This document shows, piece by piece, positions 44,189-62,053 of a stretch of 64,000 bases of DNA (the first letter of the stretch is position 1; every line of letters begins with the position of its first letter). Source of the stretch: Lysobacter sp. yr284. GTDB taxonomy: Bacteria > Pseudomonadota > Gammaproteobacteria > Xanthomonadales > Xanthomonadaceae. The translations under genes and the position numbers were made by a program. Where the stretch lies: positions 1,116,001 through 1,180,000 of the forward strand of contig NZ_FNPT01000001.1 of the NCBI RefSeq assembly GCF_900107375.1. The letters are read 5' to 3'. The notes under the pieces are model-generated. The model ran no database searches. It was not told where the DNA came from and was given only the letters and a program-made list of their open reading frames with translations.

Positions 44189-44947
44189 ATGAAGCATCTC
44201 GTCCCGTTCACCCTGCTCGCCGCCTGCGCCCTGGCCGCGCCCGCCGCGCACGCCGTCGTCGTCGGCGGCATCGTCAGCACCGACGCGCGCTGGCCGGCCG
44301 CGGCCGCCGGCTACGACCGCATGAGCTTCTACGATCAGGTCGTCCAGGACGGCGGCGCGCGCTCGAACTACTTCTGGGCCAACCAGTTCTGGTTCGTCGG
44401 CGGCGACGGCGGCTACATCGGCCTGCAGAACCGCAGCGGCCAGCACTGGATCAATTTCTCGATCTGGCTGGCCAGCGGCTGGGACCCGGCCAGCCGCGCA
44501 GCCTGCAACCACTTCTCGCACGAAGGCAGCGGCGTGCAATGCCAGCTCAAGTGGGACTGGAAGACCGGGCACAAGTACAAGGTCGAGGTCGCGCGCGCGT
44601 CCAACCGCGTCACCGGCACCGTCACCGACCTGATGACCGGTGACAGCGTCGCGGTCGCCACGATCCTGATCCCCACCGGCTGGAGCGGCCTCAAGAACAC
44701 CACGGTCAGCTTCGTCGAGGAATACAGCCAGGGCAGCAACCAGTTGGCGTCGTGCAGCGTGATCGGCGCGCAGTCCTCGGTGTTCCACCTGCCGGTGGCC
44801 AACGGCAACCTGCCGGCCAGCAGCCAGACCACCAAGACCTACGGCAACTGCAACGACCGCAACATCGTCCACGCCGCCTGCGACGCCGGCGGCAAGTGCA
44901 TCAACATCGTCGGCGATCTGGGCGGGTTCGCGTCGCCGGCGGAGTGA
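44189..44947 (+). CDS. Secreted protein, possibly DUF3472-like
   Basis: This 252-residue protein has a clear signal peptide (LVPFTLLAACALAAPAAHA) and an excellent ribosome-binding site (GCAGGAGAG). The mature part includes FWFVGGDGGYIGLQN, HWINFSIWLASGW, CQLKWDWKTGHKYKVEV and four or more paired cysteines (CNDRN, ACDAGGKC). The Tyr-Gly-Leu-Gln followed by Phe-Ser-Ile-Trp pattern recalls DUF3472 lectin-like domains, but this is tentative. It is probably an extracellular binding protein of unknown target. Confidence 0.65.
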   Translation: MKHLVPFTLLAACALAAPAAHAVVVGGIVSTDARWPAAAAGYDRMSFYDQVVQDGGARSNYFWANQFWFVGGDGGYIGLQNRSGQHWINFSIWLASGWDPASRAACNHFSHEGSGVQCQLKWDWKTGHKYKVEVARASNRVTGTVTDLMTGDSVAVATILIPTGWSGLKNTTVSFVEEYSQGSNQLASCSVIGAQSSVFHLPVANGNLPASSQTTKTYGNCNDRNIVHAACDAGGKCINIVGDLGGFASPAE

Positions 44948-47471: not shown

Positions 47472-48341
47472 TCAGGGAACGTAGTCCACCGACTCCGCTT
47501 CGCCCGCCTGCGCCTTGACGATCTGCGTGTAGTACGCCTCGGCCGAAGCCGTATCGAGGAAGGCGTTCGGCGCCCAGATCATCACGCCCTGGTAGCCGCC
47601 GTCCTCGACGTCCTGGGCGATCGAGCGCACCGACGAGGCCGGGCTGAACTGCGGCGAGATGCCGAGGAACAGCGCGTTCTTGCTCATCCCGTAGCCGACG
47701 TACGGCGCCAGGTAGCTCACGCTGCCGGCGTAGGTCATCTCATAGCCTTCGGTGAGGTAGTCGGCCGCGTTCGACGGCGAACGGAAGTAGCTGGAATCCG
47801 ACCACAGCGCCTTCGACAGGGTCTTGCCGGCGAACTTGCTGTTGGCGCGGATCGCCTTGAGCACCGAATAGAACGCCTTGGCGTTGCCGGAGCACTGCGA
47901 ATACTCGTCGTCGACGCTGATCCCGTCCAGGCCGTACTTGACCACGTCGGCGACCATCGCATTGGCGAGCTTGGTCGCCGCGGCCGCGCTCATGTTGCAC
48001 GACCAGCCCGCGTTCTGGTGGTTGCCCAGGTAGGAGATCTGGACCTTGATGCCCTTGGCCTGCAGGCCGCGCACGATGCTGATGTTGTCCTTGAGGATCG
48101 CGCTCATCTCGGCGTTGTAGTACAGCACCGGCGTGTTGGGCGTGCTGCCGTTGATGTTGGCGGCGAACAGGACCAAGTCGGAGAAGAACGGCTGGCCGTC
48201 GCTGCTGACCAGGTAATGGCCTACGTCTTTCACGTTCTGCGGCGAAGGATTGTTCAAGAACACGACATTGCGCGCCGACGCTTCGCCAACGCCGAAAAAC
48301 GCCATTAGACCGACCGCAAGAAGCGCAGATTTTCCAAACAT
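47472..48341 (-). CDS. Secreted GH18 endo-beta-N-acetylglucosaminidase (Endo H-like)
   Basis: This 289-residue protein has a signal peptide (LLAVGLMAFFGVGEASA) and a GH18 barrel: the strand VQISYLGNHQNAGW, then the catalytic strand LDGISVDDEYSQ near residue 148, and a late VMIWAPNA. Endo H/F enzymes have DGxDxDDEY here; the final Asp and the catalytic Glu are kept, but the central Asp is Ser. Such enzymes cut the chitobiose core of N-glycans, for example on fungal glycoproteins. An AGGAG ribosome-binding site precedes the ATG. It is monocistronic, with its own terminator. Confidence 0.8.
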   Translation of the reverse strand: MFGKSALLAVGLMAFFGVGEASARNVVFLNNPSPQNVKDVGHYLVSSDGQPFFSDLVLFAANINGSTPNTPVLYYNAEMSAILKDNISIVRGLQAKGIKVQISYLGNHQNAGWSCNMSAAAATKLANAMVADVVKYGLDGISVDDEYSQCSGNAKAFYSVLKAIRANSKFAGKTLSKALWSDSSYFRSPSNAADYLTEGYEMTYAGSVSYLAPYVGYGMSKNALFLGISPQFSPASSVRSIAQDVEDGGYQGVMIWAPNAFLDTASAEAYYTQIVKAQAGEAESVDYVP

Positions 48342-48990: not shown

Positions 48991-49323
48991 ATGAAGACCA
49001 TGGAAACGATCGGTCTCGCGCTCGCCCTGCTCGTCAGCTTCGGCGCCAGCGCGCAGAGCGTCGACGGCCCGAACACGCCCTGCATCGGCCAGCCCACCGC
49101 CTACAAGCTGTGCCTGAGCCAGAACTTCCCCTACAACTGGGCTTGGAGCGTCAACAACGGCGCTTCGGTCGTGGACATGGGCACCGACGGCATCAGCTGC
49201 TACCTGGCGACGGTCACTCCCGGCGCGTCGGCGTTCTTCCTGACCTTCAGCCAGAGCAATCCGCCCGGGCTGCCGCAACCGGCCAACATCACCAAGTACG
49301 CGGTGCCGCGGCGCTGCAACTGA
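48991..49323 (+). CDS. Small secreted protein
   Basis: This 110-residue protein has a signal peptide (IGLALALLVSFGASAQS) and four or five cysteines in the mature part (TPCIGQ, KLCLSQ, ISCYL, RRCN), so it is probably disulfide-stabilised. The ATG follows AAGGA by 7 bases. No family is recognised. The reading WAWSVNNGASVVDMGTDG looks like an Ig-like or PKD-like strand pair, which is only a guess. It converges on the TonB receptor gene. Confidence 0.65.
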   Translation: MKTMETIGLALALLVSFGASAQSVDGPNTPCIGQPTAYKLCLSQNFPYNWAWSVNNGASVVDMGTDGISCYLATVTPGASAFFLTFSQSNPPGLPQPANITKYAVPRRCN

Positions 49324-49344
49324 GCGCGGCGGCCGCCCCGCGGC

Positions 49345-49376
49345 GCCGTCGCGCCGGCCTGCGCCGGCGCGACGGC
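49345..49376. terminator. Bidirectional hairpin between convergent genes
   Basis: GCCGTCGCGCCGGC-CTGC-GCCGGCGCGACGGC is a perfect 14-bp stem between two stop codons, 5 bases from the receptor stop. There is no T-tract, so intrinsic termination is not certain. Confidence 0.6.
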
Positions 49377-49381
49377 GATGC

Positions 49382-52300
49382 TCAGAACTTGTAGCCGACA
49401 GTGAAGCTGTAGCTGCGCCCGAAGATGCTCGCGTAATCCGGCGAATCGCCGAGGAAGCTGTTCGGGTCGTAGAACGGCAAGCGGTCGAACAGGTTCTTGA
49501 CGGTGACGCCGACGTTGAGCTTGTCGGTCGGGCGCCAGTTCAGGCTCAGGTTGGCGGTCCACCACGACGGCGCGCCGTCGCACTGCGGCTTGGGCACCGG
49601 CAGGTAGCCGGCGGTGCAGGTCTGCTCGTTGTTGTCGACTTCGTCGACGCGCTCGCGCGCCCACTTGCTGCCGCCGACGTAGTTGACGAACACGCTGGTG
49701 GTGAACTTCTGGTAGTTCCAGTCGGCGTTGATCGTCGCGCGCAGGCGCGGGTTGTTGTAGTAGCCGACGGTGTCGCCGTAGAACCAGCCGCTTTCGTCGT
49801 CGAGGTAGGAGCGGTTGCGGTTGGCGATGGTCGCGGCCAGGCCGATGTTGAGGCCGCCCCACTCGCCCAGCGAGAAACGGCTGCGCGCGTCGATGTCGAA
49901 GCCGTCGATCAGGGTGCGGCCGCGGTTCTTGTACTGGCCGACCACGCTGGCGACGTTGCCGGCGCTGTAGCCCGGCAGCGTGCCCGGGCAGGCCACGCCG
50001 CTGGCCGGGTCGGCGCACATCGCCGCCAGCGCCGCGACCGCGGCGCGGTCGGAGTCGGTGATCGGCGAACGGCGCAGTTCGGAGATGTCCTGGATCTTGC
50101 TGAAGTCCGGCGCGGCGATTTCGTTGCGGCGATAGACGAACCAGTAGTCGGCCGAGACCGACAGCCAGTCCAGCGGTTCGAACACCACGCCCAAGGTGGC
50201 GATCTTGGCCTTCTCCGGCTTGAGTTCCTGGTTGGGCTGGGTCATGCGCGCGACGGTGCGGCTGCAGTCGACGTTGAGCAGCGAGTTGCCCAGGTCAACG
50301 TCGCCGGGGCGGCGCGACTGGCGCAGCAGGTTGGCGATCGCGTTGGTCTCGTTGCAGCGCAGTTCGTCGCGGAAGCCGCCGAGCTGGGCGAACACGCCGC
50401 CGGTGCCGGCCTCGGCCAGGCTCGGCGCGCGGAAGCCTTCCGAGTAGGTGCCGCGCAGCAGCAACTGCGGCATCACCTGGTACTTCAGGCCGATCTTCGG
50501 CGCGACGTTGGCGCTGAAGTTCGGGTACTTGTCCACGCGCAGCGCGGCGTCGAGTTCGAGCTTGTCGGTCAGCGGCGCCACGGTCTCGGCGAACAGCGCG
50601 TAGGTGTTGCGCTTGCCGTCGAACCACGAACCGCCCTGCTGGGTGATCAGGCCGCGCGCGGCGTCCTCGTTGCCCGGGGTGTAGAAGGTCTCGCGGCTGA
50701 TGTTGAAGCCGAACGCCGCGCGCATCTCGCCGGCCGGCAGCTGCGCCAGCGGGCCTTCGATCTTGCCGTCGAGGGTATGCAGGCGGGTCCAGGACTGGAT
50801 GTCGAAGGTCGGATAGGCCTCGCGCAGCAGCGCCGCGTTGGCCTCGCTGATCTCGCCGAACTTGTACGCCGGATGGTCGGAGATGATCACCCGGCCGGTG
50901 CCCGGGTCGACGGTGAACGGGCCGAAGGCCTTGCGGAAGCCGTCGAGGTTGACGTTGATGGTCTGGTAGGTGATCGAGTGGCTGCCGGCGGTGGCGAAGG
51001 CGGTTTCCCAGTTCCAGTCGCCGAGGTCGCCGCGCATCCCGGCCACGGCGCGGTAGCTCTGGTCGGTGTTGCGCTGGCCGAAGTAGTTCTTGCCGGCGTC
51101 CTGCAGCAGGTAGTTCAGGCCGACCACGCCGCCCATCATCGCCTTGAGTTCGGGGCTGGCGCGGTTGTACTCGTTGTTCGGGCCCAGGAACGGATACAGG
51201 AACTGGTTGACGTTGGCGCCGGTATCGCGCGAGAACCAGCTGGTCGGGTTGCCGGTGGTGGTGCCGAAGGAACGCGGGGTGCCGCCGTTGGCGCGCAGGT
51301 CGATGTCGGTGTAGGTCAGCTCGGCGAAGGCCTCGGTGCTCTCGCCGATCAGGAAGTGGGCGTTGACGTAGCCGGTCATGCGCTCGGTCTGCGCGCCGGC
51401 GTCGATCTCGTTGTTCATCCAGGTCTGCCAGATGCAACGCGGGCCCGCGGCTTCGCCGGTCAGCACGCTGTTGCAGCCCGGCGCTGCTTCCTGCACGCGC
51501 GCGCCGGTGCGCGGATCGAAGGCGAAGTAGGTGCCGGGGTTGAACTCGCCCGGCTTGCTGCCGGTGCCCAGGCGCAGGTTCTTGATGTAGTTCGGATTGT
51601 TGATGTAGTACTGGTTCGGCCGCTTGTCGTAGAAGTCGCTCAGCGGGATCGCGTCGCGGCGGTAGAAATTGAACGAGCCGTAGACGTTGTAGCGGTCGCG
51701 GTCGAGGTCGCCGAAGCCGGCGGTGATGCTGGCCTGGTGCTCGCCGTAGGAATCGATGCGCGAGGACACGTCGGTGGTCGCGGTGATCTCGGCGCCCTGG
51801 TAGTTGCGCTTGGTGATCACGTTGATGACGCCGGCCATCGCGTCGGTGCCGTACACGGCCGAGGCGCCGTCGGTCAGCACTTCCATGCGTTCGATCGCCG
51901 CGGCGGGGATCGAGTCGATGTTGACGAACTGGGTCTGGAACCCGGCCGGCGCGCCGTAATACGACAGCCGGCGGCCGTTGAGCAGCACCAGCGTCGCCTG
52001 CGCGCCGAGGCCGCGCAGGTTGGCCTGCGAGGCGCCGTCGGAGCCGGTGAACAGCGAGCGCGAGTCCTGCTGCGCCGGGCGCGCGGCCGGCAGGTTGTCG
52101 AGCACCTGCAACAGGGTGCGCGCGCCCATGTTCTCGATGTCCTGCTTGCTGATCACCTGCACCGGCGAAGCGGTTTCCACGTCCAGGCGGCGGATGTTGG
52201 AACCGGTGACCTCCACGCGCGAGAGTTCGGTGGTCTTGCTCTTGCCGTCCGCGCCGTCGCTGCCCTGCTCCTGTGCGGCGGCGATGGACGCGTGGCCGAG

Positions 52301-52399
52301 CAGCGCGGCGGCGAGCGCCAGCGACAGCGGAGCGAGGGGGAAACGCGGGGCGGAACGGCGGGCGCTGTGACGGCGCGGGCGACGGCTGGCGGGCGACAT
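49382..52399 (-). CDS. TonB-dependent outer-membrane receptor
   Basis: This 1,005-residue protein has an Arg-rich leader and signal peptide (LSLALAAALLGHASIAAAQ). A plug domain follows (about residues 55-190): VEVTGSNIRRLDVETASPVQ, VISKQDIENMGARTLLQVL and TDGASAVYGTDAMAGVINVI. The 22-strand barrel ends in FTVGYKF with a terminal aromatic residue. Large receptors of this type in Xanthomonadaceae import oligosaccharides or peptides. The ATG at 52399 follows AGGAG. It lies 206 bases downstream of the GH31 gene on the same strand, so the likely cargo is the glycan that enzyme cuts, an inference from position only. Confidence 0.9.
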   Translation of the reverse strand: MSPASRRPRRHSARRSAPRFPLAPLSLALAAALLGHASIAAAQEQGSDGADGKSKTTELSRVEVTGSNIRRLDVETASPVQVISKQDIENMGARTLLQVLDNLPAARPAQQDSRSLFTGSDGASQANLRGLGAQATLVLLNGRRLSYYGAPAGFQTQFVNIDSIPAAAIERMEVLTDGASAVYGTDAMAGVINVITKRNYQGAEITATTDVSSRIDSYGEHQASITAGFGDLDRDRYNVYGSFNFYRRDAIPLSDFYDKRPNQYYINNPNYIKNLRLGTGSKPGEFNPGTYFAFDPRTGARVQEAAPGCNSVLTGEAAGPRCIWQTWMNNEIDAGAQTERMTGYVNAHFLIGESTEAFAELTYTDIDLRANGGTPRSFGTTTGNPTSWFSRDTGANVNQFLYPFLGPNNEYNRASPELKAMMGGVVGLNYLLQDAGKNYFGQRNTDQSYRAVAGMRGDLGDWNWETAFATAGSHSITYQTINVNLDGFRKAFGPFTVDPGTGRVIISDHPAYKFGEISEANAALLREAYPTFDIQSWTRLHTLDGKIEGPLAQLPAGEMRAAFGFNISRETFYTPGNEDAARGLITQQGGSWFDGKRNTYALFAETVAPLTDKLELDAALRVDKYPNFSANVAPKIGLKYQVMPQLLLRGTYSEGFRAPSLAEAGTGGVFAQLGGFRDELRCNETNAIANLLRQSRRPGDVDLGNSLLNVDCSRTVARMTQPNQELKPEKAKIATLGVVFEPLDWLSVSADYWFVYRRNEIAAPDFSKIQDISELRRSPITDSDRAAVAALAAMCADPASGVACPGTLPGYSAGNVASVVGQYKNRGRTLIDGFDIDARSRFSLGEWGGLNIGLAATIANRNRSYLDDESGWFYGDTVGYYNNPRLRATINADWNYQKFTTSVFVNYVGGSKWARERVDEVDNNEQTCTAGYLPVPKPQCDGAPSWWTANLSLNWRPTDKLNVGVTVKNLFDRLPFYDPNSFLGDSPDYASIFGRSYSFTVGYKF

Positions 52400-52605
52400 C
52401 GGAACTCTCCTGGCAGGATGACTGCGGCGCGAATGGCGGAATGAAGGCAACAGCGATCCCGGGCCGCGGCCATCGGGCCGCAGTCGGTGTGGGCGGGGGG
52501 AGGAGCGGTGTTGCGTTTGTGTGCGGGGTTGCGGGTTCGGTGTGCGGCGCTACCTGTTCGGCGCGGTGTGCACGGCGGGCGGGAGTGGCGGGGCGTTGCG
52601 TCGGT

Positions 52606-55600
52606 TCATGGCGGCAGGATGCTGGCGCTGTCGCCCTCCTGGCCGATCAGCGCGGCGTTGGCCCAGTTGGCGCAGACCTGGGCGGGTTGGCTGCCTTGCG
52701 CGCCGAGCGTGCGCAGGCTCAGCGACGCCAGGCCGCGGATGTCGAGTTCGGGCTTGACCACGCCCGGCGCCTTGACCAGGCCGCTGTCGTAGAGCAGCCG
52801 GCCGTCGCCCCAGACCTGGAACTGCAGGCCGCCGGCGGCGCGGCAGGCGTCGTCGATGCCGAGGTCGGCGCGCAGCAGGCGCCACTGGCCCTGCAATTTC
52901 AGGTCGATGCGGCTGGCCGCGCCGACGCCGAGGCCGCGGCGGAACAGCAGGCCGTTCATGCGCAGCGGCTGTTCGCCGCGGAACGCGCGGTCGGCGCGCA
53001 CCTGCGCGGCCAGCGCCGGCGGCAGCGCCAGTTCGGACAGATAGCGCTGCTGCGCCGGGCGTTCGGGCTGCGGGTGTTCGAGGATGTGGAAGCTCGACAG
53101 CGCGATCGGGCCGACGTCGCGCGGCTGCAGCGCATCGACCGCGCGCGCCGCGCCGGCCTGCGCCGCGGTGACCATCGGGTCGGTCGCGGAAGCGCCGTCG
53201 CCCTCGGGGTTCTGCACGCTGAGCACGCGGAAACGCAGCAGGCGGCCGGCGCGCGCGGGGAACGCGATGCGCTGGGTGTCCTGCTTGAGCTGCAGGCGGC
53301 CGCGCGCGACCGGTTCGCCCCACTCGCCGTTGCTGTCGCCCAGGTAGACCTCGTAATCGCGGACCTGGCCGTGCTTCCAGTTCTTGTCGTTGCGCGGCGC
53401 CAGTTCGATGCCGTCGATCAGCTTGCGTTCGCCGAAGCCGATCGTCCATTCGTGCGCGCCGGTGCGCACCGCCTGGTTGCGCACGCTGCGGAACCAGGTG
53501 TTCGCGTCGTCGTCGAACGCGTTTTCCAGGGCATGGCCGGGTTCTTCGGCCGGACGGTTGACCACCAGCAGGCCGTCGGCCGGCAGCGCGCGGCCCAGCG
53601 CCGGCGCGGCCGGGAAGGCGTCGTCGGCGGCCGCCGCGGCGACCGGAATGTCGAGCGCGAACTGCAGCGGCGCGCGGATGTCGACCGCGGCGCTGCGCAC
53701 GTGCACGCTGCCCTTGCGGTCGTTGGCGTCGAAGTACCAGCCCTGCGGCGCCGCCTGCAAGGCGGCGGCGTCGGCCAGCTTCGGCAGCGCGCGGCCGTCC
53801 AGCGTCACCGCGCGCGGCGCCTGCCGGCTGAGCACGCGCAGCGCGTAGCGGCGCTGCGGCAACTGGCCCTGGTACTGACCGCGCACCGCGTCGATCGAGA
53901 CCGTGGTCGGGCCGCTGCCGGCCGCCGGCGCGCTCATGCGCACCTGCTGCACGCTGGACTCGCCTTTTTCGTAACGGCGGGTGTTGCCGTCGTCCTCGTA
54001 CATCGCGTATTGCGACTCACCCTGCGGATACAGGTCGAAGCTGATTTCGTCGAGCGGCTTCTCGCCGTCGTAGAGCATCGCCGGGTGCATCGGCACGATC
54101 GCGCCGGCGCGCACGAACACCGGCAGCGTCGCCAGTTCGACCTGGCGATCCAGCTCGCGCCCGGCGGCGCCGGCCTGCACCGCGCGGCCGTCCCAGTAGT
54201 CGATCCAGCGCCCGGCCGGCAGATGGATGCCGCGCCGCCAGCCGCGGCTGGCGGCCTGGCTGCGGTACACCGGCGCGACCAGCAGGTCGCGGCCGAGCAG
54301 GAACTGGTACTTGTAGGCTTCGTCGCGCGCGTGCGGGTCTTGCGGGTAATCCCACATCAGCCCGCGCACCGGCGGCGCGCCGCTGTGTGCGGCCTCCTGG
54401 ACCAGCCCGTACATGTACGGCGTCAGCCGCATCTTCAACTTCAGGTAATCGCGGTTGATGCTGCGGTAGGGCTCGTCGAACCACCACGGATGCTTGCGCG
54501 CGTTCGACGACCAGCCCGACATGCCCATCAGCACCGGGGTGAAGGCTTTCCATTGCAGGTCGCGGGTGTAGGTCTCGGCGCTGCCGCCGAAGATCGCATC
54601 GACGTCGCCGGTGGCGTAGGCCATGCCCGACAGGCCCGAGCCGACCAGGGTCGGCACGTGCCAGCGGATGTAGTCCCAACTCGCGCTCTGGTCGCCGGTC
54701 CAGGCCACCGCGTAGCGCTGGATGCCGGCCCAGCCCATCACCGTCCACAGGAACGGGCGCGAGTCGGAGTTCTTGAGGATGCCGTCGAACGCGGATTGAT
54801 TGGCGTCGAGCGCGAACTGGTAGCCCTTGCCGGTCCAGGCCACGTCGAGCTTCTGCACGCGGCTGCCGGCGGTGCCGACTTCCCAGGCGATCTTGTCGAC
54901 CCCGTTCTCGGTCCACAGGCCGGTGCGGAAGCCGTACTTCGCCAGCCCCTTCACCGTCTCGGGCAGTTGCTTGTAGCCGCAGCCGTAGCCGTCGTTGGGC
55001 AGGATCCAGCCGCCGGGCATGTCGTGCTCGCGGTACTGGCGCGCGACGCTCTCTACCACGTCGGGCGTGGTGCCGGTGGGGCCGTCGTGCCAGCCTTCGG
55101 GCACGGTGCCGGGCTTCTTAATGTTGTCGCCGTCGTTGTAGCAATCGGCGTCGCCGTACGACAGCGCCCAGCGCGGCAGCAGCACCGGGCGGCCGGTCAG
55201 GCGGGTGTAGCGTTCGAGCAGGCGCGGCAGTTCGCCGACGAAGTAGTACGCGTCGAAGCGGTCCTCGCGGTGCAGCAGCGTGGCCTGGTCGCCCTGGCGC
55301 AGGTCGTAGCTGCCGTCGCTCCAGGTGTTGCGCAGCACGCCCCAGCCGCGCGAGCTCAGCAGCATCGGCGCCGGGCTGGGGCGGTCGCCCTCTTCCCAGC
55401 CGCCGGAGTACGAGACCTCCAGTTCGCGGCCCTTGAACTGGTAGCGGCCGTTCTGCTGGCCGCCGCCGTAGAAGGCTTCGTCGGGCTGCGAGGACAGCAC
55501 CTGCACGCTCTGGTTCGCGTCCAGGTCCAGCGGCTGCAGTTCCTGCCACAGCGGCGTGCGGCGCTCGCCGTCGATGCGTTCCAGGCTCAGCTTCAGCGGC

Positions 55601-56019
55601 TGGCGCTGCACGTGCAGGACCAGCGCGCCGGTGCGCACGCGCACTTCGGCGGCGTCTTCCTCCAGCGCGGCGCGGACCTGCGCCGGCGGCTGCGCCAGCA
55701 CGATCGGCGCGGCCTTGTCGCCGGCGCCGCTGAGCTTGCCGCCGCGCCCGGCCTGGACCCGCACGATGTCGTCGGCCAGCACTTCGATGCGCAGCACGCT
55801 GCCGTTGTCGGTGCTCAGCTCCCAGTTCGGGGTCGCGCCGGCGCCGGCGCGCACCGCGCGCAGGTTGCCGACCGGTTCGGCCGCGGCCGGCAGCGCGCAG
55901 GCGCACAGCGCGGCCAGGATCGCGCGGCGCAGCAGCGCGCCCGGCAGGCGAACGCCCGCCGCAGCCGCGCTCGGAGAAAGCGCGCTCGACAGACGCGGAC
56001 CACGCACACGGAATTCCAC
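52606..56019 (-). CDS. Secreted GH31 glycosidase with C-terminal sugar-binding modules, likely alpha-N-acetylgalactosaminidase
   Basis: This 1,137-residue protein has a signal peptide (RRAILAALCACALPAAA), an N-terminal galactose-mutarotase-like domain, and a GH31 barrel (about residues 275-590). The likely nucleophile is Asp392 in KLDVAWTGKGY and the acid/base Asp443 in WTGDQS. GWILPNDGYGCGY and GLWTENG resemble the GH31 subgroup that includes alpha-GalNAc-ases. The C-terminus has an F5/8 type C (CBM32-like) module (about 795-905) and an NPCBM-like module (about 985-1,125). The GTG at 56019 has GGGGG upstream. It is divergent from GalNAc catabolic genes, across shared AgaR-type sites, so alpha-linked GalNAc is the likely substrate. 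Confidence 0.83.
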   Translation of the reverse strand: MEFRVRGPRLSSALSPSAAAAGVRLPGALLRRAILAALCACALPAAAEPVGNLRAVRAGAGATPNWELSTDNGSVLRIEVLADDIVRVQAGRGGKLSGAGDKAAPIVLAQPPAQVRAALEEDAAEVRVRTGALVLHVQRQPLKLSLERIDGERRTPLWQELQPLDLDANQSVQVLSSQPDEAFYGGGQQNGRYQFKGRELEVSYSGGWEEGDRPSPAPMLLSSRGWGVLRNTWSDGSYDLRQGDQATLLHREDRFDAYYFVGELPRLLERYTRLTGRPVLLPRWALSYGDADCYNDGDNIKKPGTVPEGWHDGPTGTTPDVVESVARQYREHDMPGGWILPNDGYGCGYKQLPETVKGLAKYGFRTGLWTENGVDKIAWEVGTAGSRVQKLDVAWTGKGYQFALDANQSAFDGILKNSDSRPFLWTVMGWAGIQRYAVAWTGDQSASWDYIRWHVPTLVGSGLSGMAYATGDVDAIFGGSAETYTRDLQWKAFTPVLMGMSGWSSNARKHPWWFDEPYRSINRDYLKLKMRLTPYMYGLVQEAAHSGAPPVRGLMWDYPQDPHARDEAYKYQFLLGRDLLVAPVYRSQAASRGWRRGIHLPAGRWIDYWDGRAVQAGAAGRELDRQVELATLPVFVRAGAIVPMHPAMLYDGEKPLDEISFDLYPQGESQYAMYEDDGNTRRYEKGESSVQQVRMSAPAAGSGPTTVSIDAVRGQYQGQLPQRRYALRVLSRQAPRAVTLDGRALPKLADAAALQAAPQGWYFDANDRKGSVHVRSAAVDIRAPLQFALDIPVAAAAADDAFPAAPALGRALPADGLLVVNRPAEEPGHALENAFDDDANTWFRSVRNQAVRTGAHEWTIGFGERKLIDGIELAPRNDKNWKHGQVRDYEVYLGDSNGEWGEPVARGRLQLKQDTQRIAFPARAGRLLRFRVLSVQNPEGDGASATDPMVTAAQAGAARAVDALQPRDVGPIALSSFHILEHPQPERPAQQRYLSELALPPALAAQVRADRAFRGEQPLRMNGLLFRRGLGVGAASRIDLKLQGQWRLLRADLGIDDACRAAGGLQFQVWGDGRLLYDSGLVKAPGVVKPELDIRGLASLSLRTLGAQGSQPAQVCANWANAALIGQEGDSASILPP

Positions 56020-56101
56020 CTTGCCCCCAAGGCCCGTTCGACGGGCATTCCGAAAACCAGACGACCAACAGCGGTTGCGGCCGACTCTAGGGCAGGGTTT
56101 C

Positions 56102-56318
56102 GAAAGCTGTCAACAAATTGAAAGTAAAAAGGAAGAATTTCTCACTCAAAACGAAAGTTTGTGCAATGCAATACTTTCTAAACATCGTGAAAACGCCTGT
56201 TAAGCGCGTAACGAAAGCGCGACTCCATCGATCTTTCGCTTTGTCTTCACGGGATCGCAGCCTAGGCCTATCCGGCCCATTTCTTTTGTTTTGCTTTCGA
56301 TATTTGACTTTCCGAAAG
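56102..56318. promoter_or_regulatory. Divergent control region with nine CTTTC/GAAAG boxes (AgaR operators)
   Basis: GAAAG occurs at 56102, 56120, 56153, 56213 and 56314, and CTTTC at 56174, 56233, 56294 and 56308, within 217 bases. At 56280-56299 a period-five TTTNN run (TTTCT TTTGT TTTGC TTTCG) matches the arrangement of E. coli AgaR sites. At 56308-56318, CTTTC-C-GAAAG is an inverted repeat. The region is AT-rich and lies between the GH31 gene and agaS. Multiple CTTTC copies are the known mark of AgaR sites in Proteobacteria. Confidence 0.8.
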
Positions 56319-56356
56319 AAAACGCTGATCGTGCCGTCGCTCAACAGGAATCATCC

Positions 56357-57511
56357 ATGGACGTCACTCCGCTTTCCGACTCGTCCGCCTGGCAGCGCCT
56401 GGGCGGAGCCGACACCGCCGCCGAGATCGCCCAGCAGCCGGCGCTGTGGGACCGGCTGGCCGCCGATCTGGCGCAGGCGCACGAACGCGTGCAGGCCTTC
56501 CTCGGCGACCGCCTCAACGATCCGCGCCAGCGCGTGCTGTTCACCGGCGCCGGCAGTTCCGGCTTCATCGCCGACATGGTCGCCGACCGCATCAACGCGC
56601 AGTGGCCGGCCGATGTGCGCGCCGTGCACACCACCAGCCTGCTGACCCATCCCGCGCTGTACCTGCAGCGCGACCGCCCGACCCTGCTGGTGTCGTTCGG
56701 CCGCAGCGGCTCCAGCCCGGAGAGCGTGGCCGCGGTCGAACTGCTGCGCGCCCAGGTCGACGATGCGCGCTTTCTCGACATCACCTGCAATCCCGAAGGC
56801 GAGCTGGCGCGCCGCGGCAAGGGCCGCGAGGACACCTGCACCCTGCTGATGCCGGCGGCCAGTTGCGACCGCGCCTTCGCCATGACCAGCAGCCTGAGCT
56901 GCATGCTGCTGGCGGCGCTGGCGGTGTTCGACGCCGCGCCGTGGGAGCAGCGCCTGGAGCACCTGCGCCAGGCCGCCGCGCTGGCGCGCGAAGGCCTCGC
57001 CCAGTGGAGCCAGGCCGCCGGCGCGCTGGCGCTGCGGCCGTTCCAGCGCGTGATCTATCTCGCCAGCGGCCCGCTGGAAGCGCTGGCGCGCGAGGCGGCG
57101 CTGAAAGTGCTCGAACTCACCGCCGGCCAGGTGCTGGCGCTGGCCAACACGCCGCTGGGCTTCCGCCACGGCCCCAAGTCGACCCTCGACGGCGCCACCC
57201 TGGTGGTGGTGATGCGCAGCAACCACGCGCTGGCGCGCCGCTACGAGCATGACCTGCTCGACGAACTGCGCCGCGACGGCGTGGCCGGGCAGGTGCTGGC
57301 GATCGGCCCGCATTCGGACATCGGCGGCGGCGACGACTACAGCCTGCGCGCGCCGCCGCTGGACGACAGCTGGCTGGCGCCGGTGTGGCTGACCTTCGCC
57401 CAGGTCTTCGCCCTGCAGCGCTCGGCCGCGCTCGGCCTGACCCCGGACAATCCGTTCCCGGACGGCACCGTCAACCGCGTGGTCAAGGGCGTCACCATCC
57501 ACCAGGGCTGA
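56357..57511 (+). CDS. agaS: Galactosamine-6-phosphate deaminase/isomerase AgaS
   Basis: This 384-residue protein has two SIS domains: FTGAGSSGFIADMVADRI near residue 60, LVSFGRSGSSPESVAA near 110, and YLASGPLEALAREAALKVLELTAG in the second half. This is the AgaS pattern. AgaS deaminates galactosamine-6-phosphate to tagatose-6-phosphate in GalNAc catabolism. A start at 56357 (AGGA before it) gives the usual length; an upstream frame continues into the operator region and is unlikely. It is the first gene of agaS-ROK-agaZ-agaR-agaA, five genes in close order. Confidence 0.88.
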   Translation: MDVTPLSDSSAWQRLGGADTAAEIAQQPALWDRLAADLAQAHERVQAFLGDRLNDPRQRVLFTGAGSSGFIADMVADRINAQWPADVRAVHTTSLLTHPALYLQRDRPTLLVSFGRSGSSPESVAAVELLRAQVDDARFLDITCNPEGELARRGKGREDTCTLLMPAASCDRAFAMTSSLSCMLLAALAVFDAAPWEQRLEHLRQAAALAREGLAQWSQAAGALALRPFQRVIYLASGPLEALAREAALKVLELTAGQVLALANTPLGFRHGPKSTLDGATLVVVMRSNHALARRYEHDLLDELRRDGVAGQVLAIGPHSDIGGGDDYSLRAPPLDDSWLAPVWLTFAQVFALQRSAALGLTPDNPFPDGTVNRVVKGVTIHQG

Positions 57512-57516
57512 GCCTC

Positions 57517-58461
57517 ATGTCTGAACCCGCACGCGCCGCCGTCGGCTACGGCATCGACATCGGCGGCACCAAGATCGAACTGGTCGCCTGCGATGCCGCG
57601 CTGGAAGTGCTGCACCGCCGCCGCATCGCCACCCCGCAGGGCGACTACGACGGCTTCCTGGCCGCGCTGGAAACCCTGGTGGCCGAGGCCGACGCCGAGC
57701 TGGCCGAGGCCGGGCGGGTGCGGTCCGGCGCCGCGGTCGGCATCGCCCTGCCCGGCGTGCGCGACCGCCGCAGCGGGCTGCAGCTCAGCGCCAACGTGCC
57801 GGCGCTGACCGGCCGCAAAGTCGCCGCGGACCTGCAGGCGCGGCTGCGCCGGCCGCTGCGTTTCGGCAACGACCTGCAATGCTTCGCCTTGTCCGAAGCG
57901 CACGGCGGCGCCGCCGACGGCTATCCGAGCATGTTCGGCGCGATCCTCGGCACCGGCGCGGGCGGCGGCTATTGCCTGCACGGCCGGCTGGTGTCCGGCT
58001 TCAACGGCATCGCCGGCGAATGGGGCCACTGGAGCGTGCCGGCGCACCTGTTGCAACGCCACAACCTGCCGCTGCTGGACTGCGCCTGCGGCCTGCGCGG
58101 CTGCCTGGAGCGCTATGTCTCCGGCAGCGGCCTGGTCGCGCTGTACCGCCACTTCGGCGCCCAGGCCGCCGACGCCGGCGCGGTGTTCGCCGACGCCGAC
58201 GCCGGCGACGCGCGCGCCCGAGAAGCGCGCGCCGTGCACCTGGATCTGCTCGGCCACGGCCTGGCCGCGCTGGTACTGGCGCTGGACCCGCACGTGATCG
58301 TGCTCGGCGGCGGCCTGTCGCAGCACGCGCCGCTGTACGACGCGCTGCCGGCCGCGGTCGCCGCGCACCTGTTCAAGGGCGTGCAGGTGCCGCCGATCGT
58401 GCCGCCGCGCTTCGGCGATGCCGGCGGCGCGCGCGGCGCCGCCTTGCTCGCGCTGTCCTGA
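57517..58461 (+). CDS. ROK family sugar kinase, probable GalNAc kinase
   Basis: This 314-residue ROK kinase has the ATP loop GIDIGGTKIELV, GTGAGGGYCLHG, the ROK zinc signature near residue 190 (GHWSVPAHLLQRHNLP, CACGLRGCLERYVSGSG) and VLGGGLS near the end. In the GalNAc pathway of Shewanella-type bacteria, AgaK phosphorylates cytoplasmic GalNAc when no PTS is used, which fits this operon, where no PTS gene is present. It lies 5 bases after agaS. By sequence alone, GlcNAc, glucose or fructose could be substrates; position favours GalNAc. Confidence 0.85.
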   Translation: MSEPARAAVGYGIDIGGTKIELVACDAALEVLHRRRIATPQGDYDGFLAALETLVAEADAELAEAGRVRSGAAVGIALPGVRDRRSGLQLSANVPALTGRKVAADLQARLRRPLRFGNDLQCFALSEAHGGAADGYPSMFGAILGTGAGGGYCLHGRLVSGFNGIAGEWGHWSVPAHLLQRHNLPLLDCACGLRGCLERYVSGSGLVALYRHFGAQAADAGAVFADADAGDARAREARAVHLDLLGHGLAALVLALDPHVIVLGGGLSQHAPLYDALPAAVAAHLFKGVQVPPIVPPRFGDAGGARGAALLALS

Positions 58462-58504
58462 CCCGCCACGCCCTGCCCGTTCCATCCAAGTTCCGGAGTC
58501 CGCC

Positions 58505-59833
58505 ATGTCGCCCGTGCAATCGCTGATCGCCTCCCACCGCCAGGGCCGCAACGTCGGCCTGTACAGCGTGTGCTGCAGCAACGAACTGGTGCTGCGCGCG
58601 GCGATGGACGTGGCCGGCCGCCACGGCACCGTGCTGCTGATCGAAGCCACCTCCAACCAGGTCGACCAGTTCGGCGGCTACACCGGCATGACCCCGCCGC
58701 AGTACCGCGACTACGTGCGCGCGCTGGCGAGCGAAGAGAATTTCCCGATCGAGCGGCTGGTGCTCGGCGGCGATCATCTGGGCCCCAACGCCTGGCAGAA
58801 GCGCCCGGCCGACGAGGCGATGGCGAACGCGCGGGTGCTGATCGAGGCCTACGTCGCCGCCGGCTTCCACAAGATCCACCTCGATTGCAGCATGTCCTGC
58901 GCCGACGACCCCACCCCGCTGCCCGACGCCACCGTCGCCGCGCGCTCGGCCGAACTGGCGCGCATCGCCGAGCGCACCGCCGCCGCGCACGGCCTGCCGC
59001 CGCCGGTGTACGTGATCGGCACCGAAGTGCCGGTGCCCGGCGGCGAAGCCTCGCTGGCCGGCGGCCTGCAGGTGACCACGCCGCAGGCGGCCGAGCAGAC
59101 CCTGGCGATCCACCGCGAGGCCTTCGCCGCGCCCGACCTGGCCGCGGCCTGGGAGCGGGTGATCGCGATGGTGGTGCAGCCGGGCGTGGACTTCGACCAC
59201 AGCAGCGTGCACGACTACGACCCCGACGCCGCCCGCGCCCTGGCCGATTTCCTCGAACGCCAGCCGCGCATCGTGTTCGAGGCGCATTCCACCGACTACC
59301 AGCGCGAGGACGGCCTGCACGCGCTGGTGCGCGACCACTTCGCCATCCTCAAGGTCGGCCCGGCGGCGACCTTCGCCTACCGCGAGGCGCTGTTCGCGCT
59401 GGCCGCGATCGAGGCCGAGCTGCTGCCGCCGGCGCAGCGCTCGGACCTGCCGCAGACGCTGGAGCGCTGCATGCTCGAACACCCCAAGCACTGGCAGCAG
59501 CACTACCACGGCGACGACGACGAACTGCGCCGGCTGCGCGCCTACGCGCTTAGCGACCGCTGCCGCTACTACTGGGGCGAGCCGGCCCTGGTCGCGGCGG
59601 TGCAGCGCCTGTTCGACAACCTGCGCGCGCACGCGCCGCCGCTGTTCCTGCTCAGCCAGCACCTGCCCGAGCAGTACCGCGCGGTGCGCGCCGGCGCGCT
59701 GGCCAACCGCCCCGAGGCGCTGGTCCGCCATCGCATCGGCCTGTGCCTGGACGAGTACGCGCGCGCCTGTTCGGCGAACGCGGCCGGCGCGCGCACGGCC
59801 GCCGGCCGCGCGGCCGCCGCGGCGAACGGCTAA
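58505..59833 (+). CDS. agaZ: Tagatose-bisphosphate aldolase non-catalytic subunit family protein AgaZ
   Basis: This 442-residue protein has the full GatZ/KbaZ/AgaZ pattern: VCCSNELVLRAAMD, LLIEATSNQVDQFGGYTGMTP, LGGDHLGPNAW, IHLDCSMSCADD, IGTEVPVPGGE, FEAHSTDYQ and ILKVGPAATFAYREALFAL. In E. coli this family assists the class II aldolase KbaY/GatY on tagatose-1,6-bisphosphate. No GatY/KbaY homologue is in the window, so either the aldolase lies elsewhere or AgaZ acts differently here. The C-terminal 25 residues are Ala-rich and poorly conserved. Confidence 0.88.
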   Translation: MSPVQSLIASHRQGRNVGLYSVCCSNELVLRAAMDVAGRHGTVLLIEATSNQVDQFGGYTGMTPPQYRDYVRALASEENFPIERLVLGGDHLGPNAWQKRPADEAMANARVLIEAYVAAGFHKIHLDCSMSCADDPTPLPDATVAARSAELARIAERTAAAHGLPPPVYVIGTEVPVPGGEASLAGGLQVTTPQAAEQTLAIHREAFAAPDLAAAWERVIAMVVQPGVDFDHSSVHDYDPDAARALADFLERQPRIVFEAHSTDYQREDGLHALVRDHFAILKVGPAATFAYREALFALAAIEAELLPPAQRSDLPQTLERCMLEHPKHWQQHYHGDDDELRRLRAYALSDRCRYYWGEPALVAAVQRLFDNLRAHAPPLFLLSQHLPEQYRAVRAGALANRPEALVRHRIGLCLDEYARACSANAAGARTAAGRAAAAANG

Positions 59834-59860
59834 TCTTCGGTTTTCCCCGCGGACCCGACG

Positions 59861-60643
59861 ATGGCCACGCGCAATACCCGCTCCCGCCGGCAGCAGATCC
59901 TGCAGTGCCTGATCGAACAAGGCTCGGTCCAGGTCGCCGAACTGGTCGAGCGCTTCGAGGTCTCGGCGGTGACCATCCGCGCCGACCTCAGCCACATCGA
60001 ATCGCAGGGCTTGGCCACCCGCACCCACGGTGGCGCCACCCTGGTGCGCACGCCGCCGCAGGAGCAGGACATCCATGAGAAGGACGCGCTGAACCTGCCG
60101 CTGAAGGAACGCATCGGCGCGCGCGCCGCGCAGTTGGTGCAGGCCGGCGACAACATCATCATCGACTCGGGCTCCACCACCATGACCCTGGCCCGCCACC
60201 TGCGCGGCCACCGCGACGTCACGGTGATGACCAACGGCCTCAACATCGCCTGGGAGCTGGCCAACGCGCCCGGCGTTGACGTGCTGCTCAGCGGCGGCCT
60301 GCTGCGCAAGCAGTCGCTGTCGCTGCAGGGCAGTCAGGCCGAGGCCAGCCTCAACGCCTACAGCTTCGATACCTTGTTCCTCGGCGTGGACGGCCTGGAC
60401 CTGCAGTTCGGCCTGACCACCCACGACGAAGCCGAAGCCCGCCTCAACCACCGCATGGTCGAGCACGCGCGCCGGATCGTGGTGCTGACCGACGCCTCCA
60501 AGTTCGGCCGGGTCAGCCTGCACCGCATCGCCCGGCTCGACCAGGTCCACGCCATCATCACCGACGCCGGCATCGACGAGCGCTACCGCGAGGGGCTGCT
60601 GCGGCTGGGCATCGAGGTGATCATCGCCGAGCCGCTGGCGTGA
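59861..60643 (+). CDS. agaR: DeoR family repressor, AgaR-like
   Basis: This 260-residue regulator has a DeoR winged helix-turn-helix at about residues 10-60 (ILQCLIEQGSVQVAELVERF, VSAVTIRADL, THGGATLV). The sugar-phosphate-binding domain has DSGSTTMTLARHL, TNGLNIAWEL, GLTTHDEAEARLN and VLTDASKFG. Effectors of such repressors are phosphorylated sugars. It sits inside the operon it should control; the nine CTTTC/GAAAG boxes at 56102-56318 fit AgaR. The agaA start overlaps its stop. Confidence 0.87.
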   Translation: MATRNTRSRRQQILQCLIEQGSVQVAELVERFEVSAVTIRADLSHIESQGLATRTHGGATLVRTPPQEQDIHEKDALNLPLKERIGARAAQLVQAGDNIIIDSGSTTMTLARHLRGHRDVTVMTNGLNIAWELANAPGVDVLLSGGLLRKQSLSLQGSQAEASLNAYSFDTLFLGVDGLDLQFGLTTHDEAEARLNHRMVEHARRIVVLTDASKFGRVSLHRIARLDQVHAIITDAGIDERYREGLLRLGIEVIIAEPLA

Positions 60644-61749
60644 GCGGACTTCGTACCTTGCACGGCCGCATCCTCACCCCCGCCGGCTGGCGCCGCGGGC
60701 GCATCGGCTTCGACACGCACGTGCGCAGCATCGAGGACGCCGGCGGCGCGGGCGGCGACGAGGAGCGCATCGTCCTGCCCGGCTTCATCGACCTGCACGT
60801 GCACGGCGCCGCCGGCGTCGACCTGATGCAGGGCTTCGATGTCGCGCGCACCATCGCCCGCGCCCACGTCCGCTACGGCACCACCGCCCTGCTCGGCACC
60901 ACCATGACCGCCGCCGAGGACGACATCGTCCACGCCCTGCATGGGCTGGCCGCGGCGATGGCCGCGCCCGATCCGGACGCGGCGCAGATCCTCGGCGTGC
61001 ATCTGGAAGGCCCCTTCATCAGCCCGCACCGGCTCGGCGCGCAACCGCCGCTGACGGTGGAGGCCACGCTCGATTCGGTGCGGCGCCTGCACGCGCTGGC
61101 GCCGATCCGGGTGCTGACCCTGGCGCCGGAGATCGGCCGCCACACCGAACTGATCCCGGCGCTGTGCGCGCTCGGCATCCGCGTGCAGGTCGGCCACAGC
61201 GCCGGCACTTACGAGGAAGGGTTGGCCGCGCTGCGCGCCGGCGCGTCCGGCTTCACCCACCTGTTCAACGGCATGACCGGGGTGGATCACTACAAGCCCG
61301 GCATCGCCGCGGCCGCGCTCGCCCACGCCGAATACGCCGAGCTGATCCCCGACCTGCAGCACGTGCACCCCGGCGCGATCCGCCTGGCCCTGCGCGCGAT
61401 CCCGCGCCTGTACGCGGTCACCGACGCCACCGCCGCCACCGGCATGCCCGACGGCGAGTACGCGCTGGGCTCGCAGCGCGTGCACAAGTGCCTGGGCTGC
61501 GTGCGCCTGGCCAGCGGCTCGCTGGCCGGCAGCGCGCTGACCATGGACCAGGCGCTGCGCAACCTGGTCGAGGTCGGGCTGGACCTGGCCGACGCCGCCC
61601 ATCGGGTTTCCACCTTCCCGGCCGACTACCTCGGCCTGTCCGACCGCGGCCGGCTCGAACCGGGCGCCCGCGCCGACCTGGTGGTGCTGGACGCGCAATT
61701 GCGCGTGGTCGAGGTGCATGTGGCCGGACGGGCGATCGCCTTGGCCTGA
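60640..61749 (+). CDS. nagA: N-acetylhexosamine-6-phosphate deacetylase (NagA/AgaA)
   Basis: This 369-residue amidohydrolase has DLHVHGAAGVD (first metal His pair), HLEGPFI with the metal Glu, QVGHSAGTYEE, THLFNGMTG, a catalytic Asp in VTDATAATG and LAGSALTMDQA. It removes acetate from GlcNAc-6-P or GalNAc-6-P. In the aga operon, between AgaK and AgaS in the pathway, it most likely acts on GalNAc-6-P (AgaA role), but the two activities cannot be told apart by motif. The GTG start overlaps the agaR stop (GTGA). Confidence 0.9.
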   Translation: MSGLRTLHGRILTPAGWRRGRIGFDTHVRSIEDAGGAGGDEERIVLPGFIDLHVHGAAGVDLMQGFDVARTIARAHVRYGTTALLGTTMTAAEDDIVHALHGLAAAMAAPDPDAAQILGVHLEGPFISPHRLGAQPPLTVEATLDSVRRLHALAPIRVLTLAPEIGRHTELIPALCALGIRVQVGHSAGTYEEGLAALRAGASGFTHLFNGMTGVDHYKPGIAAAALAHAEYAELIPDLQHVHPGAIRLALRAIPRLYAVTDATAATGMPDGEYALGSQRVHKCLGCVRLASGSLAGSALTMDQALRNLVEVGLDLADAAHRVSTFPADYLGLSDRGRLEPGARADLVVLDAQLRVVEVHVAGRAIALA

Positions 61750-62053
61750 GCCGGGCCAGCGCGCCGGCGGCGCGCCGCGCCGCCCGACGTTCCGCTCGAC
61801 GTCCCGCGCGGCCGAACCGCACAAACCGGTCGCCGCGCGCGCTTGCGCCCGGCCCGCGGCGGCGCGGCGACGACGCCGCCGGCTCCGTTCGTACGCCGCG
61901 CGCGCGCGTCCATCCGAAACCCCGGCCCGGCCTGTCCAACGCGGCGCCGCAATGCGTTCGACTTGGATGCGCGCGATCCGGCGCCCGCGCCGCTTCGCCG
62001 CCGGAGCAGCGACCGCGCTGCCCGACCATCGCCACACGCACACAGGAGCATCC
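61750..62053. other. Gene-free gap, 304 bases
   Basis: No gene or terminator is clear. The sequence is Arg/Ala-coding junk in all frames, very GC-rich, and ends with the ribosome-binding site (ACAGGAG) of the next gene. Confidence 0.5.

Follow-up and report, generated by a model that had tools for sequence, protein, structure and literature searches.

A candidate AgaR-controlled cassette for N-acetylgalactosamine use without a phosphotransferase system in Lysobacter sp. yr284, with an unpaired AgaZ as its proposed exit

Introduction

How might a bacterium harvest and break down N-acetylgalactosamine (GalNAc) by a route that calls on neither a phosphotransferase system (PTS) nor a class II aldolase? 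The question is raised by a seven-gene cassette of Lysobacter sp. yr284, which lies in a 64,000-nucleotide stretch (the window, meaning the whole of the DNA analysed) on contig C32 of the 6.25-Mb genome (G000). The cassette has two divergent arms: a gene for a GH31 enzyme followed by one for a TonB-dependent outer-membrane receptor run leftward, and agaS, a ROK-family kinase gene, agaZ, agaR and a nagA-like deacetylase gene run rightward. An earlier note on this DNA had described these arms as a complete-looking non-PTS locus for GalNAc-containing glycans. Pfam and NCBIfam scans of ten open reading frames (ORFs) inside and around the cassette bear out its gene content, with all seven frames open, and the non-PTS GalNAc reading is supported by a GalNAcase-type GH31 and a co-conserved receptor; the description as complete-looking does not hold, as a permease and a GH109 gene are absent from the locus and no step beyond tagatose-6-phosphate had been given.

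The conversion of GalNAc to tagatose-6-phosphate in three steps (by kinase, deacetylase and AgaS) is established knowledge, and we accept it as the earlier note did. What becomes of tagatose-6-phosphate is the point at issue here. On the sequence evidence we consider it likely that the window encodes an AgaR-controlled cassette for harvesting and burning GalNAc without a PTS, one that is real and conserved and probably works. We further hypothesize, as the better-supported ending of the pathway, that AgaZ alone closes it by converting tagatose-6-phosphate to fructose-6-phosphate through epimerisation at C4. Among the literature matches listed, titles and abstract openings gave no account of this cluster of Xanthomonadales and Oxalobacteraceae, nor of AgaZ as an epimerase in GalNAc breakdown, although absence is not proven by such a search.

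A conserved gene order

Relatives of the GH31 were sought in one genome per species; 84,980 species were scanned, 218 relatives came up, and the best 80 were kept as related loci, so that counts among them are biased towards close kin, and some of the loci end at contig ends or at the 10-kb flank. Carriers among the loci listed include Stenotrophomonas, Lysobacter, Duganella, Massilia, Janthinobacterium and kin, and the closest relatives at the cassette are Lysobacter antibioticus HS124 (the top identity, 91%), L. antibioticus 13-6 and Lysobacter sp. Root690. Counting a gene as present at more than 45% tblastn identity over half of the query, AgaS, AgaK, AgaZ and AgaR were each found in 76 of the 80 loci and NagA in 69, with the receptor nearly as frequent as the former (Table 1). 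By position, the AgaR-AgaZ-AgaK-AgaS group is divergent from GH31 in 75 loci, and all seven genes stand in the window's order, with the receptor less than 400 bp from GH31, in 57. The gene order thus recurs in other Lysobacter, a check that the earlier note had proposed. A separate draw of 79 family genomes (yr284 and 78 others; GH31 counted at E <= 1e-150) gave 12 with the GH31, and in all 12 a gatZ gene lies 2.4-2.6 kb away on the same contig; gatZ itself occurs in 16 of the 79, four of which are without this GH31.

AgaZ and the exit from tagatose-6-phosphate

The names given to AgaZ do not agree. It is called a tagatose-6-phosphate kinase in a passage of PMC4694137 and a "proposed" one in a passage of PMC12118421, whereas the NCBIfam name of TIGR02810, the joint GatZ/KbaZ model that the window protein passes, makes the family a non-catalytic aldolase subunit. 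A third role comes from E. coli, where GatZ and KbaZ are described, in the relevant part of PMC11907403, as C4 epimerases that convert fructose-6-phosphate to tagatose-6-phosphate with an activity called low, the reverse reaction being cited there from earlier work. The same part names six active-site residues of GatZ, and all six are found in the window AgaZ (C23, E47, H91, E174, H261 and K283) and kept in 76 of 76 AgaZ loci.

The genome offers an aldolase subunit no partner of the class II type: PF01116 has no match in the whole genome, with the E. coli positive control detected, and none of the 16 GatZ-bearing family genomes has a match over the cut-off. Since no class II aldolase match exists in the genome, the reading of AgaZ as an aldolase subunit does not fit here. 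Among all 79 family genomes PF01116 exceeds its cut-off in one only, G016, a genome that has no GatZ. The fructose-6-phosphate that an epimerase would deliver has a way onward, as zwf, pgl, edd and eda adjoin the N-acetylglucosamine (GlcNAc) genes (G000:C25:135828-144961), which makes an Entner-Doudoroff exit available.

Several observations weigh against an epimerase. AgaZ falls below the separate KbaZ (587 against 707 bits) and GatZ (485 against 579) models; the six residues are highly conserved throughout the GatZ/KbaZ family (PMC11907403, in the same part), and their conservation therefore does not separate an epimerase from an aldolase subunit; one GatZ-bearing genome, G014, has a PF01116 match of 20.1 bits, below the cut-off of 25.5; and a general phosphofructokinase (PF00365) together with a class I aldolase, neither of which was searched for, could do the same job.

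The last of these points belongs to the strongest alternative, the textbook ending, in which a kinase turns tagatose-6-phosphate into tagatose-1,6-bisphosphate for an aldolase to split, AgaZ being either that kinase or a non-catalytic aldolase subunit. The published and database names of AgaZ speak for it, and the general phosphofructokinase and class I aldolase might supply both steps. We nevertheless regard it as unlikely, given the missing class II aldolase matches and the PfkB-family proteins of the genome: four of five were scanned (for three of them just the matched stretch), and all stay below the cut-off of TIGR03168, a model of the 1-PFK type that we take to cover LacC as well, the best scoring 63.9 against 216.4 bits. 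A route that ends in aldol cleavage of tagatose bisphosphate is thus probably not the one used here, and closure by AgaZ as an epimerase remains the preferred reading.

The GH31 enzyme and the enzymes of the operon

That the sugar is GalNAc is suggested first by the GH31. Its best solved match is an alpha-N-acetylgalactosaminidase of Enterococcus (6m76, E 2e-115), the next distinct enzyme following at 1.8e-47, and Pfam places in it the GH31 domains, DUF5110, and F5/8C and NPCBM modules; its N-terminus, judged by eye, is signal-like. At the position aligned to the window's Asp392, the PDB entries 7f7q and 7f7r carry Ala and Asn, which marks Asp392 as the nucleophile. All 80 related loci keep both it and Asp443, presumably the acid/base to judge by the aligned Enterococcus residue. 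A gene for a second type of alpha-GalNAcase, GH109 (Pfam PF21252; 2ixa, E 1.7e-145), occurs in 67 of the 80 loci, at most 400 bp after the receptor in 44 of them; ORF clustering across the same loci counts 66. The earlier note's assignment of the GH31 as an alpha-GalNAcase is supported by the closest solved relative and the conserved nucleophile, and is strengthened by the company of GH109. An AlphaFold2 model of the enzyme (20-row alignment) was discarded, as its mean pLDDT was 57 and fell below 50 at residues 276-526, most of the catalytic barrel.

The intracellular enzymes are less clear-cut, and some of their scores count against a dedicated GalNAc pathway. AgaS scores 413.6 bits on TIGR02815 (E 7e-124), yet stays below the curated cut-off of 529.2; its solved relatives are putative tagatose-6-phosphate isomerases. 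The ROK kinase reaches 289 bits on the NagK equivalog, below the cut-off of 380, and its nearest solved relatives are GlcNAc kinases (for these matches see Table 1), the GalNAc specificity being read from the gene context. The deacetylase passes TIGR00221 narrowly and falls below PRK11170, the E. coli-type NagA model (164 against 483). It carries the motifs HVHG, HLEGPF, GHSAG, THLFNGM and TDAT, whose roles we take to be those known for such deacetylases. The genes for GlcNAc (a GntR-type regulator, an SIS protein and nagA) form a separate cluster on contig C25; for this reason the cassette deacetylase and, by extension, the kinase are probably dedicated to GalNAc. The labels of the cassette genes are on this evidence likely rather than certified.

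A second alternative would make the locus one for another alpha-linked sugar or for free galactosamine, with a GH31 that is no alpha-GalNAcase. GH31 spans many specificities, as a passage of PMC9061262 sets out, and the resemblance of the kinase to GlcNAc kinases and the subthreshold AgaS point the same way. We think it improbable, because no other solved GH31 comes nearly as close to the window enzyme as the GalNAcase does, the GH109 alpha-GalNAcase accompanies most of the related loci, and AgaR and a deacetylase sit in the operon.

Within a GalNAc reading, the source of the sugar leaves more room. The earlier note spoke of mucin-like glycans, for which we find no sequence support: nothing in the locus names a substrate, and to our knowledge the carrier genera (Stenotrophomonas, Lysobacter, Duganella, Massilia, Janthinobacterium and kin) are not mucin specialists. 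Fungal or bacterial alpha-GalNAc polymers, lipopolysaccharide and animal O-glycans are all possible sources. Fungal galactosaminogalactan is a further candidate, and Pel, a polymer of bacterial biofilms, consists in part of alpha-1,4-GalNAc (PMC9135694). In the relevant passages of PMC11992087, BT3169-GH31 is reported to be inactive on blood group A, a trait shared by an E. faecalis homologue and the enzyme of B. caccae, while GH109 is active there; by analogy, the window GH31 more plausibly targets terminal alpha-GalNAc in some setting other than blood group A. The same passages place the Bacteroides GH31 and GH109 in the periplasm, acting after import.

Beside the receptor lies a gene for a GH18 protein resembling endo-beta-N-acetylglucosaminidase H (window 47472-48341, minus strand; Endoglyc_H 100 bits, cut-off 300), which is found in 0 of the 80 related loci. 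A DUF3472 protein is encoded at window 44189-44947 (plus strand), and another DUF3472 type occurs in 22 of the 80 loci; in locus L030 a DUF3472 protein of the window's type, with a ricin-type lectin domain, stands between the receptor and GH109.

The control region and AgaR

Control by AgaR is suggested by the repressor itself, which clears its equivalog cut-off (Table 1), and by the 337-bp divergent region between the arms. E. coli AgaR sites are CTTTC repeats. GAAAG or CTTTC occurs nine times in the region, whereas 2000 dinucleotide shuffles averaged 1.8 occurrences and never exceeded 6. Aligned with 25 others, drawn from the 72 loci whose region was usable, the window (26 sequences in all) shows conserved blocks on both arms, some of them common to Xanthomonadales and Oxalobacteraceae. 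The site TTGACA-18-TAGAGT is the only sigma-70-like one in 49300-61900 (12.6 kb, with 0.4 expected), and is largely conserved in the same alignment; between its hexamers, on the GH31 arm, lies TTTCGAAA, the spot where a repressor would block transcription. These GAAAG-type repeats are candidate AgaR operators.

Two genome-wide results count against the assignment: the pattern GTCAA..GAAAG is not enriched across the genome (7 matches, against 5 for the reversed control), and it is absent near the GH109 gene on contig C16 and near the GGP permeases on C25 and C40. Given the lack of enrichment of so short a pattern, binding by AgaR is proposed from the local evidence. A regulon search for the missing permease returned only the two control-region sites and chance-level matches.

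Uptake, and what the cassette lacks

The TonB-dependent receptor is proposed, from its gene context, to import GalNAc or a GalNAc-glycan; among solved structures, those nearest to it are receptors for siderophores, colicins and B12, the match covering the plug region only. For the inner membrane, 62 of the 80 related loci encode an MFS sugar porter of about 600 residues, less than 500 bp from nagA in 61 of those, and ORF clustering likewise counts 62. About 600 residues is long for a sugar porter, and in two loci (L030:2385-4190 and L061:2417-4282) the Pfam match is broken into two parts, a hint that a domain may have been inserted.

The window has no such gene. No inner-membrane permease lies inside its cassette, leaving no counterpart to the AgaP of the Shewanella unit, and both the GH109 and the MFS genes are absent from the window and from the close relatives L010, L011 and L012. 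What also weighs against a self-sufficient pathway is that no close homologue of the relatives' MFS permease was found in the whole genome, the best match being 31% over 121 residues. The sole GH109 of the genome is on contig C16 and is 73% identical to that of L030. Its neighbourhood was considered as a second aga locus and set aside, as no aga genes were recognised there by eye; two SIS-domain matches lie near it, one of which looks like an RpiR-type regulator. The top SIS match of the genome, on contig C24, has a neighbourhood that reads by eye as KdsD-type. Of the two GGP-type permeases in the genome (contigs C25 and C40), the NagP-like one at C25:101032-102351 (353 bits on the NagP equivalog, cut-off 625) is the one best placed to supply the inner-membrane step.

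The weakest alternative treats the cassette of the L. antibioticus group as a relic that no longer functions. It is prompted by the loss of both permease and GH109 from the locus, with no close copy of the former in the genome and the latter found only elsewhere, and is very unlikely in view of the seven open frames in the window, the near-full-length match to each gene in L010-L012 (frames there not checked base by base), the catalytic residues and control region kept in those three loci, and the two GGP-type permeases that could substitute.

Origin of the cassette

The window, L010, L011 and L012 share a block of 12.4 kb that stands in four different neighbourhoods in these four close relatives, and homology stops at the block edges. 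Where flanks were compared (2-7 kb per side, three loci), no match was found among the four apart from brief repeated pieces of cassette genes in L011, where nagA and agaR fragments stand beside the cassette a second time (L011:1555-1827), as if from an earlier duplication. In a gene tree of AgaS, AgaR, GH31 and AgaZ (28 rows chosen from 76, under NCBI names), the L. antibioticus-group rows (the window, L010, L011 and L012) nest inside Stenotrophomonas. Constraining the Stenotrophomonas rows to one group is rejected (p-AU 0.0003), as is a single group of all rows named Lysobacter (p-AU 1e-5), the constrained groups having been chosen after the first tree had been viewed. Together these observations suggest a portable block that has been transferred between genera.

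The means of transfer was sought nearby. No integrase was recognised by eye among the listed ORFs near the block, and insertion at a tRNA gene was set aside, the window's only tRNA lying at 1722-1820, far from the cassette. Core-protein identity proved non-discriminating as a test of transfer: reciprocal best hits above 50%, from a crude ORF caller, gave medians of 72.4% (27 of 38 pairs, G006) and 68.5% (17 of 23 pairs, G013, of the same genus). One related locus, L045 (JAHREJ010000011.1), is labelled Bacillus subtilis; it is a Stenotrophomonas-type locus with a GH31 that is 79% identical, it groups with Stenotrophomonas, and it is probably contamination or wrongly labelled.

The features of the cassette are collected in Table 1. 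The agaS ORF spans 56291-57511 (plus strand), and the ATG at 56357 was taken as its start.

Table 1. Features of the candidate GalNAc cassette, in window coordinates
Feature	Coordinates	Strand	Evidence
Cassette extent common to L010, L011 and L012	49349..61776		blastn, 86-88% nucleotide identity; homology ends about here within the available flanks
TonB-dependent outer-membrane receptor, plug and barrel	49382..52450	-	Pfam PF00593, PF07715; 71/80 related loci
GH31 alpha-N-acetylgalactosaminidase candidate with F5/8C (CBM32-like) and NPCBM (CBM51-like) modules	52606..56019	-	Pfam; 6m76, E 2e-115
Codon of Asp443 (proposed acid/base)	54691..54693	-	Alignment with Enterococcus residue
Codon of Asp392 (nucleophile)	54844..54846	-	Alignment with 7f7q, 7f7r
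Divergent control region, nine GAAAG/CTTTC (candidate AgaR operators)	56020..56356		Shuffle test; conserved blocks
Promoter-like site of GH31 arm, TTGACA-18-TAGAGT	56084..56113	-	Sigma-70-like pattern; TTTCGAAA between hexamers
Operator-like element GTCAACAAATTGAAAG, GH31 arm	56109..56124	+	Conserved block in alignment
Operator-like element GTCAAATATCGAAAG, agaS arm	56294..56308	-	Conserved block in alignment
agaS, galactosamine-6-phosphate deaminase/isomerase candidate	56357..57511	+	SIS domain; TIGR02815 413.6 bits (cut-off 529.2); 3odp, E 2.6e-82
agaK, ROK-family sugar kinase (GalNAc kinase by context)	57517..58461	+	PF00480; 7p7i, E 8.7e-72
agaZ, GatZ/KbaZ family, proposed tagatose-6-phosphate 4-epimerase	58505..59833	+	TIGR02810 600 bits (cut-off 568.8)
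agaR, DeoR-family repressor	59861..60643	+	NCBIfam AgaR 331.5 bits (equivalog cut-off 260)
nagA/agaA-like deacetylase (GalNAc-6-phosphate deacetylase by context)	60640..61749	+	TIGR00221 231 bits (cut-off 225.65)

Discussion

From the evidence above we infer a scheme, including every enzyme activity, the ligand of the receptor and the sites of the repressor. The exported GH31, anchored by its two carbohydrate-binding modules, would release terminal alpha-GalNAc residues from polysaccharides or glycoproteins, working either extracellularly or in the periplasm; the TonB-dependent receptor would move GalNAc or a GalNAc-bearing fragment through the outer membrane; and a permease encoded outside the cassette, for which the NagP-like GGP protein is the best candidate, would carry GalNAc inward. 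There the ROK kinase would form GalNAc-6-phosphate, the NagA-like enzyme would strip its acetate, AgaS would convert the resulting galactosamine-6-phosphate to tagatose-6-phosphate and ammonia, and AgaZ would epimerise this at C4 to fructose-6-phosphate, which could then pass as glucose-6-phosphate into the Entner-Doudoroff pathway. AgaR, on the GAAAG-type repeats of the divergent region, would repress both arms until an intermediate appears.

Several known systems come near to this scheme. One is the non-PTS Aga pathway of Shewanella (Omp-Aga, AgaP, AgaK, AgaA-II and AgaS, as described in passages of PMC2996990 and PMC12118421), in which, as in the cassette, a TonB receptor, a separate kinase, a deacetylase and AgaS take the place of the PTS; unlike it, the cassette has a GH31 alpha-GalNAcase candidate, lacks a permease, and has an AgaZ for which the genome yields no class II aldolase match. 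The aga/kba and gat pathways of E. coli share with it AgaR, AgaS, the deacetylase and GatZ/KbaZ family proteins, whereas no PTS gene was seen in the cluster, the only part of the genome examined for such genes, and no KbaY/GatY-type aldolase match in the genome. The E. coli epimerases GatZ and KbaZ (PMC11907403, in the part cited) are of the same family as AgaZ and have the same six named residues; there, fructose-6-phosphate is turned into tagatose-6-phosphate for tagatose production, whereas AgaZ is proposed as the exit of GalNAc breakdown.

For the harvesting end, the alpha-N-acetylgalactosaminidase of Enterococcus faecalis (6m76, 6m77, 7f7q and 7f7r) shares the catalytic domain and nucleophile with the window enzyme, which differs in sitting in an aga operon and carries F5/8C and NPCBM modules (those of the Enterococcus enzyme were not compared). 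In Bacteroides thetaiotaomicron, the polysaccharide utilisation locus BT4240-50 and BT3169-GH31 (passages of PMC11992087) combine GH109 and GH31 alpha-GalNAcases that feed GalNAc metabolism, an outer-membrane importer and an MFS gene, as do related loci of the cassette; there, however, the importer is a SusCD system and the kinase acts at O1, whereas the cassette has a TonB receptor and a 6-phosphate route. The main text of PMC11992087 makes no mention of AgaS, tagatose or a deacetylase.

The kind of pathway is already known and the route is slightly unusual; the most interesting point is the unpaired AgaZ. With chances somewhat better than even, we propose that a bisphosphate-free GalNAc route, through AgaZ as epimerase and the Entner-Doudoroff pathway, is the general solution of the family, within a cassette that moves between genera and plugs into whatever permease the host provides. 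The modular GH31, and the GH31/GH109 pairs of its relatives, are candidate enzymes for the removal of alpha-GalNAc. AgaZ has been assigned three roles, those of kinase, aldolase subunit and epimerase, and GalNAc operons that carry it where the genome lacks a class II aldolase offer clean natural cases in which to test them.

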